A stretch of DNA of 7,651 bases from Sediminibacterium sp. (GTDB lineage: Bacteria > Bacteroidota > Bacteroidia > Chitinophagales > Chitinophagaceae), in assembly GCA_023256555.1 (NCBI GenBank), contig JALRFB010000039.1, positions 1 to 7,651 on the forward strand, written 5' to 3'. The notes under the pieces are model-generated. The model did no database searches. It saw only the letters and a list, made by a program, of their open reading frames with translations, and had not been told where the DNA came from. The position numbers were made by a program, and so were the translations under genes. This document shows, in pieces, positions 1 to 7,651 of this stretch (position 1 is its first letter; every line of letters starts with the position of its first letter).

Positions 1-330
1 GTCTATAAAAATGAAGTATTTACCCATTTGCATATTGGGCAAAATATAGATGAAGCATTTGTTAAGAAAATTAGAGATGGCAATAAGTTAGATATTGGTA
101 TTGGGAAACAAGGGGTAGAGAAATTGACAGATGATCAATCTTCTATCATAAGATTACTTAAAATGCATCAAGGCTTTTTGCCTTATCATGATAAGTCCAA
201 TCCAGATGATATTTATGCTTTCTTTGGGATGAGTAAAAAAGCATTCAAAATGAGTGTCGGAATTTTATACAAGGCAAAATTAATCACCATTGAAGAAGAT
301 GGTATTCGATTAGTGACTGAAAATCAATAA
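1..330 (+). CDS. cvfB: CvfB/YitL-like S1 RNA-binding protein, C-terminal part (5' truncated by window edge)
   Basis: The frame is open from base 1 to a TAA stop at 328-330, so the visible 110 residues are the end of a longer protein and the ATG at 28 is internal, not the start. The visible part begins with the tail of an S1-like beta-barrel repeat (VYKNEVFTHLHIGQ, then an IDEAFVKKIRDGNKLDIGIG segment). It ends in the winged-helix domain typical of CvfB/YitL proteins, with the landmarks GFLPYHDKSNP, FGMSKKAFKMSVGILY and EEDGIRLV. Family members are about 280 residues, so roughly the last 40 percent is present. Known members bind RNA and have been linked to virulence-factor expression in Staphylococcus; the role in Bacteroidota is not well defined. 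The thiolase gene follows 41 bases later on the same strand, so co-transcription is possible, though no functional link is evident. Confidence 0.85.
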   Translation, partial: VYKNEVFTHLHIGQNIDEAFVKKIRDGNKLDIGIGKQGVEKLTDDQSSIIRLLKMHQGFLPYHDKSNPDDIYAFFGMSKKAFKMSVGILYKAKLITIEEDGIRLVTENQ

Positions 331-371: not shown

Positions 372-1553
372 ATGGCAAAGGAAGTATATATAGTAGCAGC
401 CGTTAGAACGCCGATTGGTTCATTTGGCGGATCTTTAAAATCTTTTTCAGCTACTCAATTGGGCGGAATTGTCATTAAAGCGATTCTAGATAAAACAAAA
501 ATTGATCCCAATAATGTAGACGAAGTTATTTTTGGCTCAGTCATTCAAGCTGGTTTAGGACAAGCCCCTGCAAGACAAGCTGCATTGAATGGAGGGCTTC
601 CGCACAAAGTAATTTGTACTACAGTCAATAAGGTATGTGCAAGTGGTATGAAAACCATTGCTCAGGCCGCCCAAACTATTTTACTTGGTGATGCCGATAT
701 TGTCATAGCTGGAGGAATGGAAAGCATGAGTAATGTACCATTTTATAATACCCATCAGAGATGGGGCAATAAATATGGAGATACCACCATTTTAGATGGA
801 TTAGCCAAAGATGGTTTGGTTGATGTGTATGATAAAGTAGCCATGGGAAATTTTGCAGACCTATGTGCAAAAGAACATACTATTTCAAGAGAAGATCAAG
901 ATGCTTTTGCTACAGAAAGTTATCAAAAATCACAAGCAGCAACGGAAAAAGGATTATTTAAAGAAGAGATTGTTTCAATAACTATACCACAAAAAAAAGG
1001 GGAGTCTATCATTATTGATAAAGACGAAGAACCCTTCAATGTAAAATTTGATAAAATTGCTCAATTAAATCCTGCTTTTACTAAAGAAGGTACCGTTACA
1101 GCGGCAAATGCAAGTACAATGAACGATGGCGCAGCAGCCATTTTATTAATGAGCGGTGAAAAAATGAAAGCATTAGGATTAAAGCCTTTGGCAAAAATAG
1201 TTAGTTATGCTGATGCTGAACAAGATCCTAAATGGTTTACTACAGCCCCTTCATTGGCTCTACCTAAAGCACTCGCAAAAGCGGGACTAAGCATAAATCA
1301 AATTGACTTCTTTGAATTCAATGAAGCATTTTCCGTAGTGGGGATTGTAAATACTCAATTACTTAAAATAGATCCAGCTAAAGTTAATATACGTGGTGGT
1401 GCTGTTTCTTTGGGACATCCATTAGGATGTAGCGGTGCTAGAATTGTAGTAACATTAACACATATATTAGAAAGCAATCAAAAGCAATTTGGAGCTGCAG
1501 CAATTTGTAATGGTGGAGGAGGTGCTTCCGCATTAATAATTGAAAGGGTATAA
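372..1553 (+). CDS. atoB: Acetyl-CoA C-acetyltransferase (thiolase family)
   Basis: This is a complete 393-residue thiolase, the usual length for the family. It catalyses reversible condensation of two acetyl-CoA to acetoacetyl-CoA in the cytoplasm, or thiolysis of 3-ketoacyl-CoA. All catalytic landmarks are present: the acyl-accepting Cys89 in NKVCASGMK, the NEAF motif with Asn317, His349 in SLGHPLGCSGAR, and the second active-site Cys379 in CNGGGG. The positions closely match those of the well-studied biosynthetic thiolases. The segments VYDKVAMG (152-159) and DPKWFTTAP (285-293) resemble the acetoacetyl-CoA (ACAT1-like) type, so I favour acetyl-CoA acetyltransferase over a long-chain FadA, but the sequence alone does not fix substrate length. 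No FadB-like partner is adjacent. The ATG is preceded by an A/T-only stretch without a Shine-Dalgarno sequence, as usual in Bacteroidota. The gene converges with ytxJ, 13 bases apart. The gene symbol is by family only. Confidence 0.95.
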   Translation: MAKEVYIVAAVRTPIGSFGGSLKSFSATQLGGIVIKAILDKTKIDPNNVDEVIFGSVIQAGLGQAPARQAALNGGLPHKVICTTVNKVCASGMKTIAQAAQTILLGDADIVIAGGMESMSNVPFYNTHQRWGNKYGDTTILDGLAKDGLVDVYDKVAMGNFADLCAKEHTISREDQDAFATESYQKSQAATEKGLFKEEIVSITIPQKKGESIIIDKDEEPFNVKFDKIAQLNPAFTKEGTVTAANASTMNDGAAAILLMSGEKMKALGLKPLAKIVSYADAEQDPKWFTTAPSLALPKALAKAGLSINQIDFFEFNEAFSVVGIVNTQLLKIDPAKVNIRGGAVSLGHPLGCSGARIVVTLTHILESNQKQFGAAAICNGGGGASALIIERV

Positions 1554-1566
1554 ATAAATAGAAAAG

Positions 1567-1899
1567 CTATTGGCTTACTTGTTCCAACAATTCGTCCATC
1601 ATTATTCCATAATGACTTTCATCATAAGTGCATTCTCCATTTTTAATTAATAATACCTGTGGAGATTCATGGTGCACATGAAAAAATTCAGCAATAGCAT
1701 TTGAAATTGGCCTAAAATTCAATAAATCTAAATAGTAAAAATCAATATTATCAGGTGCTTCCGCTCTTTCAAATCTTGAAAAAGCCATTTGTGAAATACT
1801 ACATGTGGTGCTATGTTTGAAGATAACCTGAGGCTTATTGCTAGAATTTATTTTAATGTTTTCTAATTGATCTAGACTAGTTAATTGAATCCAATTCAT
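1567..1899 (-). CDS. ytxJ: YtxJ-type monothiol bacilliredoxin (BrxC family)
   Basis: This 110-residue single-domain thioredoxin-fold protein matches the YtxJ/DUF2847 family in length and pattern. The active-site motif is HSTTCSIS (residues 29-36), with a single nucleophilic Cys33 where thioredoxins carry CxxC. The expected cis-proline is Pro80 in HESPQVLLI. The YLDLL segment (56-60) fits the beta strand before it. A second cysteine, Cys90, lies outside the active site. Family members are inferred to remove bacillithiol from S-bacillithiolated cytoplasmic proteins, so the gene suggests that the host makes bacillithiol, as many Bacteroidota do. It is convergent with the thiolase gene and divergent from the exonuclease gene, so it is probably transcribed alone. 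A candidate Bacteroidota -7 element lies just upstream. The start at 1899 lies immediately before the conserved N-terminal strand and gives the normal family length. Confidence 0.9.
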   Translation of the reverse strand: MNWIQLTSLDQLENIKINSSNKPQVIFKHSTTCSISQMAFSRFERAEAPDNIDFYYLDLLNFRPISNAIAEFFHVHHESPQVLLIKNGECTYDESHYGIMMDELLEQVSQ

Positions 1900-1992: not shown

Positions 1993-2760
1993 ATGCAATT
2001 ACAATTGACCAATCCTATTTGTTTTCTAGATTTAGAAACTACTGGTATAAATGTTAGTCTTGATAGAATAGTAGAAATTGCTATCATCAAAATTATGTCT
2101 GATGGTTCTAAGCAAATCAAAAGAAAATTAGTCAATCCTGAAATGTCTATACCTAAAGCTGCATCAGATGTGCATGGCATTACTGATGAAATGGTTAAAG
2201 ATGCTCCAAGCTTCAAACAAATTGCAAACGAAATTAAACAATTTATTGAAGGAGCAGATTTAGCAGGGTATAATAGTAACAGATTTGATATTCCTATGTT
2301 AAATGAAGAGTTTCTTAGAGCGGGTATTGCAATTGATATGTTATCAAGAAAATTATTAGATGTTCAAAAAGTGTTTCATATGATGGAACAAAGAACTCTT
2401 TCAGCAGCTTATAAATTTTATTGTGATAAGAATTTAGAAGATGCGCATACTGCTGAAGCAGATGCAATGGCAACATTTGAAGTACTGGAAGCACAGGTGG
2501 TTAAGTACCCTCAAATTGGAAATACAGTAGAATCAATCGTTAAATTTACCGGAGAAGATGAGATTATTGACTTCGCTAGAAGATTGGTTTATGAGAATGG
2601 GGTAGCGGTATTTAATTTTGGGAAACATAAGGGAAAACCTGTTATTCAAGTACTTAAAGAGGAACCACAGTACTATGATTGGATGATGAAAGGTGATTTT
2701 GCGCTACATACTAAGCAAAAATTGACTGAAATTCTAAATAAGTCAATATTAAATAAATAG
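1993..2760 (+). CDS. DEDDh-family 3'-5' exonuclease (DnaQ/ExoX-like) with ExoX-like C-terminal domain
   Basis: This 255-residue protein carries a full RNase-T/DnaQ exonuclease domain (about 8-170). Exo I is FLDLETTG with Asp13 and Glu15, Exo II is NSNRFDIPML with Asp99, and Exo III is HTAEAD with His152 and Asp157. These are the four acidic residues and the general-base histidine of two-metal-ion DEDDh exonucleases. A second conserved block at about 206-248 (FNFGKHKGKPV, EPQYYDWMMKGDF) resembles the small C-terminal domain found in ExoX-like proteins. It is therefore more likely a stand-alone repair or recycling exonuclease than the proofreading subunit of the replicase, although annotation pipelines often call it DNA polymerase III epsilon. 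The start is well fixed: the same frame has a TAA stop at 1969-1971 and no other ATG before 1993. It is divergent from ytxJ and is followed after 52 bases by the glycosyltransferase gene. Confidence 0.9.
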   Translation: MQLQLTNPICFLDLETTGINVSLDRIVEIAIIKIMSDGSKQIKRKLVNPEMSIPKAASDVHGITDEMVKDAPSFKQIANEIKQFIEGADLAGYNSNRFDIPMLNEEFLRAGIAIDMLSRKLLDVQKVFHMMEQRTLSAAYKFYCDKNLEDAHTAEADAMATFEVLEAQVVKYPQIGNTVESIVKFTGEDEIIDFARRLVYENGVAVFNFGKHKGKPVIQVLKEEPQYYDWMMKGDFALHTKQKLTEILNKSILNK

Positions 2761-2812: not shown

Positions 2813-3574
2813 GTGAAAAAATTAGTCATAATCCCTACTTATAACGAGAAAGAAAATATTCTTTTGATCGTTAATGCTGTTTTGTCTTTAAAGGGGGCTT
2901 TTGATATTTTAGTCATTGATGATGGTTCTCCAGATGGAACTGCTCAATTGGTAAAAGACACAATTCCCAAACATCCAGGTAGATTATTCATTGAAGAAAG
3001 AGCTGGCAAATTAGGATTAGGTACTGCCTATATTCATGGTTTCAAATGGGCTTTAGAAAAAAATTACGACTATATAGTTGAGATGGATGCAGATTTTTCT
3101 CACAATCCCAACGATTTAGAAAGATTGTACACTGCATGTGAAGTGGATGGTGCTGATGTGAGTATCGGTAGTAGATATGTAAGAGGTGGCGCAACTGAGA
3201 ACTGGCCATTAGATAGATTAATTTATTCAAAAGGAGGATCTGCTTATACTAGAATTATCACTGGTATGCCTATCAAAGATCCTACAGCTGGTTTTGTTTG
3301 TTATAAAAACAAGGTGCTCGCTGCAATTGATTTAGATAAGATTAATTTTATAGGTTATGCATTTCAAATTGAAATGAAATTTGCATCTTGGAGATTGGGC
3401 TTTAAATTAAAAGAAGTTCCTATTACTTTTGTTGATAGAAAAATTGGCACTAGTAAAATGTCTAAGGGAATTATCAAAGAAGCCATACTTGGTGTGTTAA
3501 ACATGCAATGGCAGCATATGACTGGACGCTTTATAAAGAATATTAAGCGTGTATATGTTAGTCTTTTTTTGTAG
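2813..3574 (+). CDS. Polyprenol monophosphomannose synthase-like glycosyltransferase (GT2, DPM1 family)
   Basis: The 253-residue protein is a GT-A fold family 2 glycosyltransferase. Visible motifs are IIPTYNEKENI (6-16), the nucleotide-binding DDGSPDGT (36-43), the metal-binding DAD at 92-94 within VEMDADFSHNP, and GSRYVRGG (119-126). Others are the acceptor-side DPTAGFVCY (156-164) and DRKIGTSKMSKG (208-219), where DPM1 enzymes hold basic residues near the lipid phosphate. DPM1-type enzymes move mannose from GDP-mannose to a polyprenyl phosphate at the inner face of the cytoplasmic membrane, supplying periplasmic mannosyltransferases. The protein ends about 30 residues after the catalytic domain, without a GtrA-like membrane domain, so it is the single-domain soluble or peripheral form. 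The start is GTG: a TAA stop lies in frame at 2807-2809, two codons upstream, and the IIPTYNE strand follows directly. The true sugar could be glucose or another hexose. It converges with the receptor gene, 4 bases apart. Confidence 0.88.
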   Translation: MKKLVIIPTYNEKENILLIVNAVLSLKGAFDILVIDDGSPDGTAQLVKDTIPKHPGRLFIEERAGKLGLGTAYIHGFKWALEKNYDYIVEMDADFSHNPNDLERLYTACEVDGADVSIGSRYVRGGATENWPLDRLIYSKGGSAYTRIITGMPIKDPTAGFVCYKNKVLAAIDLDKINFIGYAFQIEMKFASWRLGFKLKEVPITFVDRKIGTSKMSKGIIKEAILGVLNMQWQHMTGRFIKNIKRVYVSLFL

Positions 3575-3578
3575 TCAA

Positions 3579-6023
3579 CTAAAATTCTAAAATAAAACCT
3601 ACTGTCGGTGTAACAAACACTTGATTTCCATCAGTTATCGAAGGTATTGCGTTAGAACCATCTTTTTTAATTGGTTTACCATCTGTTGTTTTAAATGTAC
3701 CATCTGGATTAGATTCAAATATATATGCACTTGGCGCTACACTTCTGGTTCCATACCAATTGGTCACATCTAAGAAAAAATCTAAGGTAGCTTTCTTATA
3801 AAAATACTTTTTGTCAATTCTAAGATCACTAGAGTGGAATGGTTGAACTCTTAATGTATTTAATCTTGAATAATCTAAAATACCTTGTTTTAAAGTCACA
3901 AAATTTAATCTACTTGCAACACTATCATAAGGCGTATAAGGGGTTCCACCTTGTACTCTTAGTTTTAATCCTAATTCCCAGTTCTTATTGAATTTATATC
4001 CAGCAGTTAAACTCAATAAATGAATATTTTCCCAAGCACTAGGAATAAATTTGCCAGCAAAATTTGTATATGAACTTCTGAAATAACTATAACTTGCTAC
4101 CCCAAAAAATCTTTTAGTTAATTTCTGTTGAGCAAATAATTCAAATCCATAACTCTTGCCAAAACCTTTTGTACTAATTGGTTCATTTCCTAGAATATTA
4201 AAATCTGCTCCTAAATTAGATAGACTAATTCCTTTTTGAATACTAATAGGAACTCCAAAATACTTCTTAGCAAATACTTCAAATGTAAATCTTGTTGCGT
4301 CACTGGGTATATATTCAATTCCAGCTACATAGTGATTGCTTCCAATATAATCTGCATTCTTATTGACAAAATTTCCATTTAAATCTTTGAATCCTAACAC
4401 TGTAAGTGGTGCTACTTTAAAATATCTTCCAATAGAAGCATTTAAGTTTATCTTATCTGTTAATACATAACTGAATCCTAGTCTTGGAGAGATTCTACTC
4501 ATGAAATCTTTTCCTGAATTATTAAATCCATTCCCATCTGTTCTAATCCCGGCACTAATTCCTAATCTATTATTGAATGCTCTTTTACCTAATTGAAAAA
4601 ATGCACCATATTTTTTGAATGCTAAATCTGTAAAATAATTATAAGTCAATGGAGCTGATATTGCTAATCCTTGATTTGAAGGAATATATGATTTTAGTAC
4701 TTGATAGGTATAATTATCGTATTCCACTGTTTGAATATTAGCACCAGTAGTCCATTTTAGTCCCAAGAAACTCTTGGTAATATCGAATCTTAATTTATTT
4801 TCAATTTCATTAGATCTAAATTGTAATGTAAGCTCACCTTTATTTTGGGAAAGATTATCCTCGTATTTCTCATTTAAATTGTTCAAGTGATTTCTACTCA
4901 TACTAATATTCCAATAACCCTTATTAATCAATCTTTTTAAAGAAACACCAACTGTATAACTCCATTGATTGATTGAAGGACTTGAATTCAATGCATAAAT
5001 TTTTTCAGGTGTGGCATTTCTTGGTGCCACAAAATAGAAATCGTCTATTGCTCCTATACCCAAGAATGTTAAAGTAGTTTTGGGATCAATTTGATGGGTT
5101 ACTTTATATTGAAAATCCCAAAAATTAGGTCTTATAGGTAAGTCTAAGACATGAAATAAATATTGTAAATAACTTCTTCTAGCAGAAGCTAAGAATGTAG
5201 TTTTGCCAGATTTAGATAATGGGCCATTAAATGTACTTGCAAATTCTGTTGCTCCCATTCTGATATTGGTTTCCAATTTATTGGGGTTGCCTCTTTTCTG
5301 TTTGAATTCAAAAACAGATGAAAGCGCATTATCAAATTTTGCATCAAATGCAGAAGTAGACAATTTCACTTCATCTATAAAAGATACATTTAAAATACCT
5401 TGTGGGCCTCCAGCACTTCCTTGGGTAGAAAAGTGATTAATTACTGGTATTTCAATACCATCTAAATAAAATACATTTTCATTGGGAGCGCCACCTCTTA
5501 CAATAATATCGTTTCTAAATCCAGCACTAGTACTAGCAGAACCGGTCACGCCAGGTAAACTTTGTACAACTTTAGAAATATCAAAATTGCTACCTGGACT
5601 TGATTTAATTTCCTCTGCTGTTAACTTTTGAACACTCAAAGGAGTTTCTAAAGTAGCGGCTCTTACTGTTCTTTTAGTTCCTCCTACAATTACTTCTCTC
5701 AAGGTGAGTTCCTGAGGTAGTAATTCTATGGTATTGATGGTCTCATTACCTGAACTTACTATTACATTATACAAAGTATAGGGAATACTTCCTAAAGAAG
5801 TAAATAAAATTTGATATTGGCCTGTTGGAACCATTTTTAGCTCATATCTACCTAAGCTATCAGAAATGGTAGAAAATGGGGTATTAATTACTTTTACAGT
5901 TACTCCAGCAATGGGATTTTGTGTGTTTTTATTGACAATCCAACCAGATAGGCTACCCTTAGCTTGAGCCATTGATTGTATTGAAAAAATAAGACTAAAA
6001 CATACTAGAACAAAATTCCTCAT
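3579..6023 (-). CDS. TonB-dependent outer-membrane receptor with carboxypeptidase-regulatory-like N-terminal domain
   Basis: This is a complete 814-residue outer-membrane protein. Residues 1-21 form a signal peptide, with a hydrophobic core and a likely signal peptidase I site after AQA (19-21). Residues ~23-103 are a carboxypeptidase-D-regulatory-like beta-sandwich (GWIVNKNTQNPIAGVTVKV, SDSLGRYELKMVPTGQY). Residues ~105-240 are the plug domain (ETPLSVQKLTAEEI, VVQSLPGVTG, DIIVRGGAPNENVFYLDGIE). The rest is a beta-barrel ending in GFILEF with a terminal phenylalanine, the usual outer-membrane targeting signal. Such receptors import substrates using TonB/ExbBD energy. It is shorter than most SusC proteins and no SusD gene is adjacent, so a glycan-utilisation role is not supported. 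The substrate cannot be read from sequence; siderophore, metal complex or peptide are all possible. It faces the S9 peptidase gene head to head and converges with the glycosyltransferase gene, 4 bases apart. Confidence 0.93.
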   Translation of the reverse strand: MRNFVLVCFSLIFSIQSMAQAKGSLSGWIVNKNTQNPIAGVTVKVINTPFSTISDSLGRYELKMVPTGQYQILFTSLGSIPYTLYNVIVSSGNETINTIELLPQELTLREVIVGGTKRTVRAATLETPLSVQKLTAEEIKSSPGSNFDISKVVQSLPGVTGSASTSAGFRNDIIVRGGAPNENVFYLDGIEIPVINHFSTQGSAGGPQGILNVSFIDEVKLSTSAFDAKFDNALSSVFEFKQKRGNPNKLETNIRMGATEFASTFNGPLSKSGKTTFLASARRSYLQYLFHVLDLPIRPNFWDFQYKVTHQIDPKTTLTFLGIGAIDDFYFVAPRNATPEKIYALNSSPSINQWSYTVGVSLKRLINKGYWNISMSRNHLNNLNEKYEDNLSQNKGELTLQFRSNEIENKLRFDITKSFLGLKWTTGANIQTVEYDNYTYQVLKSYIPSNQGLAISAPLTYNYFTDLAFKKYGAFFQLGKRAFNNRLGISAGIRTDGNGFNNSGKDFMSRISPRLGFSYVLTDKINLNASIGRYFKVAPLTVLGFKDLNGNFVNKNADYIGSNHYVAGIEYIPSDATRFTFEVFAKKYFGVPISIQKGISLSNLGADFNILGNEPISTKGFGKSYGFELFAQQKLTKRFFGVASYSYFRSSYTNFAGKFIPSAWENIHLLSLTAGYKFNKNWELGLKLRVQGGTPYTPYDSVASRLNFVTLKQGILDYSRLNTLRVQPFHSSDLRIDKKYFYKKATLDFFLDVTNWYGTRSVAPSAYIFESNPDGTFKTTDGKPIKKDGSNAIPSITDGNQVFVTPTVGFILEF

Positions 6024-6106: not shown

Positions 6107-7501
6107 ATGAAATTAGCTGCTCTATTTCTAGGATTAAGTCTTTGTACTTTTGTATTTGCCCAAAAGAAGCCATTAGATCATTCTGTATACGATCAATGGC
6201 AATCTGTAAAAGAAACTATTATTCAGCCTCAGGGTCAATTCATAGTCTATTCTATCGTTCCTCAGGAAGGAGATGGACAATTATATATTAGAAATATAAG
6301 TACCAAAGAAAGTATACAAATTGATAGAGGTGCTCAAGCTAATTTTAGTGAAGATGGTATGTATGTTTTTGGAAAAATTAAGCCGTTTTTCGCTGAAACC
6401 AGAAAAGCAAAAATAGAGAAGAAAAAGGCTGATGAATTACCGAAGGACAGCTTATTTATATATGATATTAAAAAAGCACATTTAGATAAAATTGCTAATG
6501 TTAAATCTTTTCAAACTCCATCAAAAGCTAATGGATCTTTGGTGTATTTATTAGATAAAAAAGGGGATATCAATAAAGAGGGTTCAGAATTGGTTATTCA
6601 GAATTTAAAAACAACTTTCAAGCATAGTTTTAAGAATGTTGCACAATATGCACTGAATCCAAATGGACAACAAGTAATTGTTTATAAAGTACCCACTAAA
6701 ACAAACAGCGCAGAGGTTTTATTGGCCAATTTGAACGATACAACTTATAGAAAATTAAATACAAGCATATACTCAGCAACAGGTTTTGTTTGGGATGAAG
6801 TAGGAGAACAAGCAGCCTATTTTGTTGAAAAGGATAGCACAAGTAAAGCCTTGCAGAAAAATTATCAATTGCATTATTTTCAGTTGGGGATGGATACTTC
6901 TTTGAAAGTTTTAGAAACAAGTCATCCAAATATTCCAAAGAACTATGTATTTGGTGCAGACAAGAAGTTGCAGTTTAGTAAATCAGGTAAAGTACTTGAA
7001 TTAGGTATTCAACCCATATTACCCATTAAAGATACCAGCTTACCAGAATTTGAAAGAGTAAGCTTGGATATTTGGCATTATGCAGATGCTCAATTACAAC
7101 CAATGCAATTAAAAAATCTTGAATCTATATTGAAGTCAACTGAAAAAGTCTTGTTTAGACCTGCCAATAAATCTGTATTGTATTTAGGTAAAATTAATGA
7201 TAGAGATATCAAAATTGGTAATGAAGGAGATGGAGATTGGGCTTATGCCACCATTGATTCTGCTGATGCTGCATCATTTCAGTGGCAAGGTTTTACTAAG
7301 AAAGATTTATATGCAATTCATACTGAAAGTGGTAAAAAACAATTGTTACATCATAATTGGAAGGGTAGTTTGATTGCTTTTTCTCTAATATGGCAAGTGT
7401 TAAAGATAAAGCAGTCTGCCTCATCAATTTTATCTGTTTTCATATACTTTATTGTTGTCATTAAGTCTGAAATTTTATTTGAGTCATACTCATTCATCTG
7501 A
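6107..7501 (+). CDS. S9 family peptidase (prolyl oligopeptidase family), N-terminal part only; frame runs into foreign DNA
   Basis: The reading frame is 464 codons, but only about the first 422 appear genuine. Residues 1-19 are a signal peptide (AALFLGLSLCTFVFAQ). The mature start KKPLDHSVYDQWQSVKE and later segments such as VPQEGDGQLYIRN, KIKPFFAETRKAK and QGFTKKDLYAI match the N-terminal beta-propeller region of large Bacteroidota S9 peptidases. Those proteins usually run to about 900 residues, with the Ser-Asp-His alpha/beta-hydrolase domain at the C-terminus. That catalytic domain is absent. From about base 7375 the DNA is the miaB gene on the other strand, so the last ~40 residues (IAFSLIWQVLKIKQ and onward) are an antisense artefact. 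The gene is therefore truncated by the join and not a natural short protein. In its own genome it likely encodes a periplasmic or secreted peptidase. The ATG at 6107 directly precedes the signal peptide, and the next gene upstream is divergent. Confidence 0.85.
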   Translation: MKLAALFLGLSLCTFVFAQKKPLDHSVYDQWQSVKETIIQPQGQFIVYSIVPQEGDGQLYIRNISTKESIQIDRGAQANFSEDGMYVFGKIKPFFAETRKAKIEKKKADELPKDSLFIYDIKKAHLDKIANVKSFQTPSKANGSLVYLLDKKGDINKEGSELVIQNLKTTFKHSFKNVAQYALNPNGQQVIVYKVPTKTNSAEVLLANLNDTTYRKLNTSIYSATGFVWDEVGEQAAYFVEKDSTSKALQKNYQLHYFQLGMDTSLKVLETSHPNIPKNYVFGADKKLQFSKSGKVLELGIQPILPIKDTSLPEFERVSLDIWHYADAQLQPMQLKNLESILKSTEKVLFRPANKSVLYLGKINDRDIKIGNEGDGDWAYATIDSADAASFQWQGFTKKDLYAIHTESGKKQLLHHNWKGSLIAFSLIWQVLKIKQSASSILSVFIYFIVVIKSEILFESYSFI

Positions 7502-7539
7502 CAACCAAAAGTTTTTATATAGAAAGATTTACTAGTCAT
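7351..7539 (-). CDS. miaB: MiaB (tRNA-2-methylthio-N6-dimethylallyladenosine synthase), N-terminal fragment
   Basis: Residues 1-55 are the start of MiaB: FYIKTFGCQMNEYDS holds Cys13, and ADCFIFNTCHIREKA (41-55) holds Cys49. These are the first two of the three N-terminal cysteines that bind the auxiliary 4Fe-4S cluster. MiaB is a radical-SAM methylthiotransferase of about 440-470 residues that modifies A37 of tRNAs reading UNN codons. The third cluster cysteine, the radical-SAM CxxxCxxC domain and the TRAM domain are all missing. After Ala55 (codon at 7375-7377) the frame reads IKLPFQL and stops. This tail is the antisense of the S9 peptidase gene, whereas MiaB normally continues with a Thr-rich, charged helix. 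The real fragment is therefore 7375-7539. The start codon overlaps the fur stop in an ATGA arrangement. The sequence style is proteobacterial rather than Bacteroidota, whose MiaB usually begins with an IETYGCQMN-type motif. Confidence 0.85.
   Translation of the reverse strand: MTSKSFYIKTFGCQMNEYDSNKISDLMTTIKYMKTDKIDEADCFIFNTCHIREKAIKLPFQL
7370..7377. other. Chimeric join between Bacteroidota-like and alphaproteobacteria-like DNA
   Basis: Plus-strand S9 peptidase similarity is credible up to about KGSLI (codons 7361-7375). Minus-strand MiaB similarity is credible up to Ala55 (7375-7377). The two gene bodies meet within a few bases, leaving a possible shared stretch of only a few bases such as ATTGC at 7373-7377. 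There are no terminal inverted repeats, transposase, integrase or tRNA gene at the boundary that would point to a mobile element. The placement is estimated by eye from family consensus, so the exact base is uncertain by several positions. Confidence 0.75.
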
Positions 7540-7651
7540 TTTTTTTTACAATAAAGTTCAAGTCTATGATCAATCAAATCATAACCTAAACGATTTGCGA
7601 TTTTTTTTTTTAATTGCTCAATTTCATCATCAACAAACTCAATAATTTCAC
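7536..7651 (-). CDS. fur: Fur-family transcriptional regulator, C-terminal fragment (5' truncated by window edge)
   Basis: Too short to stand out as an open frame, the minus strand encodes 37 residues before a TGA stop at 7536-7538, with the 5' part beyond the window. It reads EIIEFVDDEIEQLKKKIA, then NRLGYDLIDHRLELYCKKK. This is the C-terminal dimerisation end of Fur: the IIEF strand after the CxxC-Gly turn, the DDEIE helix, and the GYDLIDHRLELY strand whose Glu/His residues help bind metal. The partial first codon (xGT) fits the Gly that normally precedes this strand. Fur represses iron-uptake genes when bound to Fe(II). Its stop overlaps the miaB start by ATGA, indicating translational coupling, and fur-miaB is a known alphaproteobacterial gene order. 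It belongs to the foreign part of the window. Confidence 0.82.
   Translation of the reverse strand, partial: EIIEFVDDEIEQLKKKIANRLGYDLIDHRLELYCKKK

Follow-up and report, generated by a model that had tools for sequence, protein, structure and literature searches.

A Bacteroidota contig with a Pelagibacterales-like fur-miaB end, very probably an in-vitro chimera

The DNA analysed here (7,651 nucleotides, hereafter the window) is the entire contig C301, one of the 368 contigs of a draft Bacteroidota genome of 1,333,346 bases. It very probably consists of a Bacteroidota piece (1 to about 7377) and a Pelagibacterales fur-miaB piece (about 7377 to 7651) that were joined as an in-vitro chimera. An initial annotation of this DNA had described its right end as chimeric and not as biology. 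Our results support that view and favour a chimera, because the two parts have differing relatives, the genome encodes a native MiaB, the remainder of the interrupted S9 peptidase gene is found on another contig (C88) and the S9 gene is unbroken in relatives.

Results

The left part of the contig likely derives from a Sediminibacterium-like Bacteroidota chromosome (Table 1). This assignment was made because of the source names on the listed thiolase homologues, 4 of 120 of which (from 7764 matches) belong to Sediminibacterium sp. and share 86% identity; homologues closer than these carry no genus label. Scanning the window for Rfam families and tRNAs gave no match.

Table 1 Features of the window. 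Relative loci are six same-genus loci inspected for gene order.
Feature	Position	Strand	Pfam	Remarks
CvfB-like winged helix gene, 3' end	1..330	+	PF17783	80-83% amino acid identity, 4/6 relative loci; the L106 and L109 stretches are too short to reach this region
Thiolase (acetyl-CoA C-acetyltransferase)	372..1553	+	PF00108/PF02803	
BrxC-type monothiol bacilliredoxin	1567..1899	-	PF11009	4/6 relative loci
Exonuclease, RNase_T domain and ExoX-like C-terminus	1993..2760	+	PF00929, PF20600	5/6 relative loci
Family 2 glycosyltransferase	2813..3574	+	PF00535	5/6 relative loci
TonB-dependent receptor	3579..6023	-	PF00593, PF13715, PF07715	67-87% amino acid identity, 5/6 relative loci
S9-type peptidase, N-terminal part (~424 codons)	6107..7380	+		Cut at codon 424-425; without catalytic domain
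Join (TTGCTTT)	7374..7380	.		Seven bases assignable to either side; alignments to L003/L106 and L017/L018
miaB, most likely Pelagibacterales, first 55 codons	7374..7539	-	PF00919, partial	Cut by the join
fur, most likely Pelagibacterales, C-terminal 37 codons and stop	7536..7651	-		Runs off the contig end

The S9 fragment is 73% identical at the amino acid level to the protein of its closest relative, G028, where the frame spans 916 codons without a stop. At the DNA level, the match to the G028 locus (L106) extends from 6155 to 7380, where it stops (935 identities over 1231 alignment columns); a second, shorter alignment of this side likewise ends at 7380. Since the catalytic Peptidase_S9 domain (PF00326) occupies residues 684-886 of the G028 protein, no catalytic domain is encoded in the window, and a Pfam search of positions 6107-7378 gave no match, the C-terminal Peptidase_S9 domain included. 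The plus-strand frame stays open to 7501 (464 amino acids). None of 109 protein matches (candidates of 255-812 amino acids) aligned past residue 435 and none matched the tail of this fused frame, so that the frame beyond the join looks accidental. A real gene fusion was rejected, since nothing among these matches resembles the frame beyond 7380.

From the join to the contig end, about 271-278 bp of minus-strand DNA resemble the fur-miaB region of Pelagibacterales (SAR11), with the fur stop and the miaB start overlapping (ATGA) as in L017, a locus of the Pelagibacteraceae MAG CC_bin40. The 55 MiaB residues are 85% identical to L017 and 76% to L018 (Candidatus Pelagibacter MED1116), the 37 Fur residues are 92% identical to the L017 Fur, and DNA identity to L017 is 80-81%. 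Eight of 120 listed MiaB proteins (of 5214 matches to the L017 protein) are identical to the tail in 55 of 55 residues. Among the 80 loci listed of 585, the top named-contig matches were Pelagibacteraceae, and the titles of 53 name Pelagibacteraceae, Pelagibacterales or Pelagibacter; the remaining 27, with 56-68%, are from other Alphaproteobacteria, Betaproteobacteria and one Pseudomonadota MAG. With Pelagibacteraceae in first place and eight identical MiaB proteins, the donor was most likely a Pelagibacterales bacterium. Base composition by itself is weak evidence for a foreign tail: its G+C content is 26% versus 32% in the rest, and about 1% of the 278-base stretches of the rest are equally low. 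No match to positions 7300-7651 was found in phage records.

The tail genes are incomplete also by their domains. The MiaB fragment comprises only positions 2-51 of UPF0004, whereas the L017 protein has UPF0004, radical SAM and TRAM; that is, the domain set of a MiaB methylthiotransferase was not found in the fragment. In NCBIfam, the Fur end gave weak Fur matches below the cut-off. Directly beyond the 55 residues, TQK comes next in 107 of the 110 listed MiaB proteins that have the motif and in all four inspected of the eight proteins identical over 55 residues, while the window reads IKL.

Similarity to SAR11 DNA starts at 7374 for L018, L024 and L065 and, with a one-base gap, at 7369 for L017, and continues to the contig end. 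With SAR11 similarity from 7374 and S9 similarity up to 7380, the join lies within 7374-7380. This agrees with the initial annotation, which had placed an abrupt join at 7361-7390, with both frames breaking at about 7370-7377, and an oppositely oriented fur-miaB end after it (minus strand, 7374-7651). Its claim that both genes are cut was likewise confirmed, with about 424 codons versus about 910 in S9 relatives, and 55 amino acids versus 435 in the L017 MiaB. Both L017 and L018 contain TTGCTTT, whereas TTTCTTT, with a difference at 7376, is found in the closest S9 relative; hence two bases of overlap are certain and up to seven are possible. An overlap of 2 to 7 bases is short, as expected for an in-vitro chimera.

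An assembler could also have fused the two genomes by a shared k-mer, scaffolding or gap closing, with no chimeric molecule involved. The tail is short and sits at a contig end, a frequent place of assembler mistakes, and there is no N run at the join, all of which would suit such an error. However, k-mer assemblers need a shared word much longer than seven bases, and the seven or fewer shared at the join are far under the usual word lengths. A chimeric molecule is therefore likelier, and we regard assembler error as improbable. Exact terminal overlaps of 15-200 bases were absent among 73 readable contigs of the genome, and the absence of overlaps of at least 15 bases does not decide for or against it.

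We then compared the S9 locus among 60 genomes (the window's own, 36 of the same genus and 23 of the same order). The best matches were in same-genus genomes, 18 of which had a close match (49-73% identity); the remaining genomes gave weaker matches, often split and mostly of 25-48%, or none. Thus the two sides, whose taxonomy the initial annotation had proposed to compare separately, lead to same-genus Bacteroidota (S9) and to Pelagibacterales (MiaB). The S9 frame is open over at least 910 codons in 17 of the 18 close relatives (373 codons in G001). Six loci were picked from these 18 for inspection of gene order. In all six, the S9 frame is unbroken and links genes of the C301 type to genes of the C88 type, and the gene order of the window is kept as far as the stretches reach, except in L111 (G009:C29, about 7780-8761), where no TonB receptor match lies between glycosyltransferase and S9; the other five loci have one. 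Several window genes and several C88 genes stand in a single run in L106, L107, L108 and L110, the window side of L106 consisting only of S9 and of a TonB receptor gene truncated at the start of the contig. L109 and L111 are consistent with a C301-C88 run over their reach.

The remainder of the gene was located by querying the own genome with the C-terminal portion of the S9 protein from G028. Residues 568-908 are encoded on C88 from base 3 (C88:1-1025, L105), with 90% identity to G028; downstream of them, C88 carries the same genes as lie behind S9 in relatives. With 25% identity, the other C-terminal match in the genome, on C302, seems to be a distant paralogue. In the alignment to L106, the window stops at base 2847 and base 3 of C88 corresponds to base 3275, so about 425 bases are missing between the two contigs; no other contig of the genome has them at E <= 0.001. 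Because C88 carries the S9 remainder and the genes that follow it, we take C88, and not fur-miaB, to be the true neighbour of the left part, with C301 and C88 likely adjoining and about 425 bp lost between them.

As the alternative, the initial annotation had named a recent natural insertion, which here would mean that the S9 gene of this strain had received SAR11 DNA. Because the contig stops within the tail, the sequence alone leaves such an insertion a small probability. C88, however, opens with S9 sequence from the interior of the gene and with nothing foreign, and the tail holds just two truncated housekeeping gene ends and no gene of a mobile element. Furthermore, the join is absent from relatives: in the own-genus set (at least 146 genomes besides the own, 147 with it), a 30-mer across the join, at up to 3 mismatches, was found in the own genome and in 0 of the 146 others. 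An exact search of viral_contigs with the 30-mer gave 0 matches. We consider a natural insertion very unlikely, and the same holds for its specific form, a microhomology-mediated uptake of SAR11 fur-miaB by a Sediminibacterium-like bacterium that interrupted its own S9 gene. If true, an insertion would represent direct gene flow from SAR11 to Bacteroidota, caught at its first step.

The host has a MiaB of its own on C298 (L097 2-1075), which exceeds the NCBIfam cut-off although it is cut at the contig edge (358 amino acids); C111 encodes an MtaB. The native MiaB is 37% identical to the tail; miaB frames of same-genus relatives mostly have around 475-510 codons. The tail was matched in 144 of the 146 other same-genus genomes, with 49% identity for the best-scoring match, and in two there was none. 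A native second miaB was rejected, given this best-scoring identity of only 49%. As for the missing parts of the donor genes, the rest of the SAR11 MiaB matched only the native MiaB and MtaB in the own genome (40% and 26%), and the rest of the SAR11 Fur matched only the tail itself (E <= 0.001). Six SAR11 loci of about 5 kb around miaB, used as probes, revealed no further SAR11 DNA in the 73 readable contigs, and four of the six matched the window tail. Separately, G063 has a miaB match on both C5 and C7 at identical coordinates and score, which suggests a duplicated contig in that assembly.

The genome is estimated to be 58.4% complete and 1.25% contaminated, and the latter value would allow for some plain bin contamination by a misbinned SAR11 contig. 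Yet a single contig carries both host and SAR11 sequence, and therefore binning alone fails as an explanation; it was rejected, and its probability is close to nil.

Finally, we screened 82 of the 368 own contigs (73 readable, 9 all N) for artefact signatures. The 73 readable contigs revealed no large inverted self-duplication, the commonest MDA artefact; their sole inverted match, close to the start of C26 (L157 16-61), is a near-perfect palindrome of 46 bases that may be a terminator hairpin or an end artefact. Imperfect direct repeats occur at the start of C20 (L151 1-288), and direct repeats in L122. Nine contigs (C289-C297, 503-520 bases) are N throughout; contigs of about 503-520 bases are commoner in single-cell assemblies than in metagenome bins.

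Discussion

The joining most likely took place in the tube rather than in the cell. The likely route is a template switch, either while the genome was amplified with phi29 (multiple displacement amplification, MDA) or while the library was made: a 3' end from within the S9 peptidase gene would have annealed to a SAR11 DNA molecule at a short stretch of matching bases (TTGCTTT at most), and its extension would have copied that molecule. We infer, with modest confidence, that MDA itself was the joining step. The lack of large inverted self-duplications and of a second SAR11 tail in the 73 readable contigs counts against this reading. Of the two mechanisms in the initial annotation, metagenome misassembly and MDA chimera, a template switch fits our data and a k-mer error is disfavoured by the seven or fewer shared bases; an MDA chimera and a library or PCR chimera are not separated by them.

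Published MDA chimeras offer a yardstick for the overlap. In the available text of a 2007 study, over 70% of the junctions had overlaps of 2-21 nt (PMC1855051), and in that of a 2015 study, most overlaps were 5-8 nt with a peak at 6 (PMC4595205). For segments more than 10 kb apart, the former gives matching bases at only 34.8% of inverted and 27.6% of direct junctions (PMC1855051). This class is nearer to the join in the window than the overall MDA set is, and in view of its figures the overlap supports MDA less than the overall figure suggests.

If the join is artefactual, the cut genes are probably neither real gene products nor gene transfer. Three items should be left out of the gene annotation of this organism, namely the 464-amino-acid frame, the 62-amino-acid frame on the minus strand and the 37-codon end of fur, and they should not serve as evidence of horizontal transfer. 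The contig should be cut back to about 7373. The case illustrates that in a species-representative genome foreign gene pieces can sit at a contig end.

Compared with the TonB receptor/S9 locus of same-genus genomes (G028 C23 and others), the window has the same gene order up to the join, save for L111 with its missing TonB receptor, but the relatives' S9 frame runs uninterrupted over about 910 codons whereas that of the window breaks off at codon 424-425. With the Pelagibacterales fur-miaB locus L017 (JALEGD010000001.1) it has the ATGA overlap in common; there, miaB is complete (435 amino acids) and further genes come after it, in contrast to the 37 fur and 55 miaB codons of the window. With the MDA chimeras described in the available text of PMC1855051 and PMC4595205, the window shares a fusion over a handful of matching bases, 2 to 7 in its case. 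Those chimeras formed within a single genome and are mostly close and inverted, whereas the window, for which MDA may have been used, joins two organisms.
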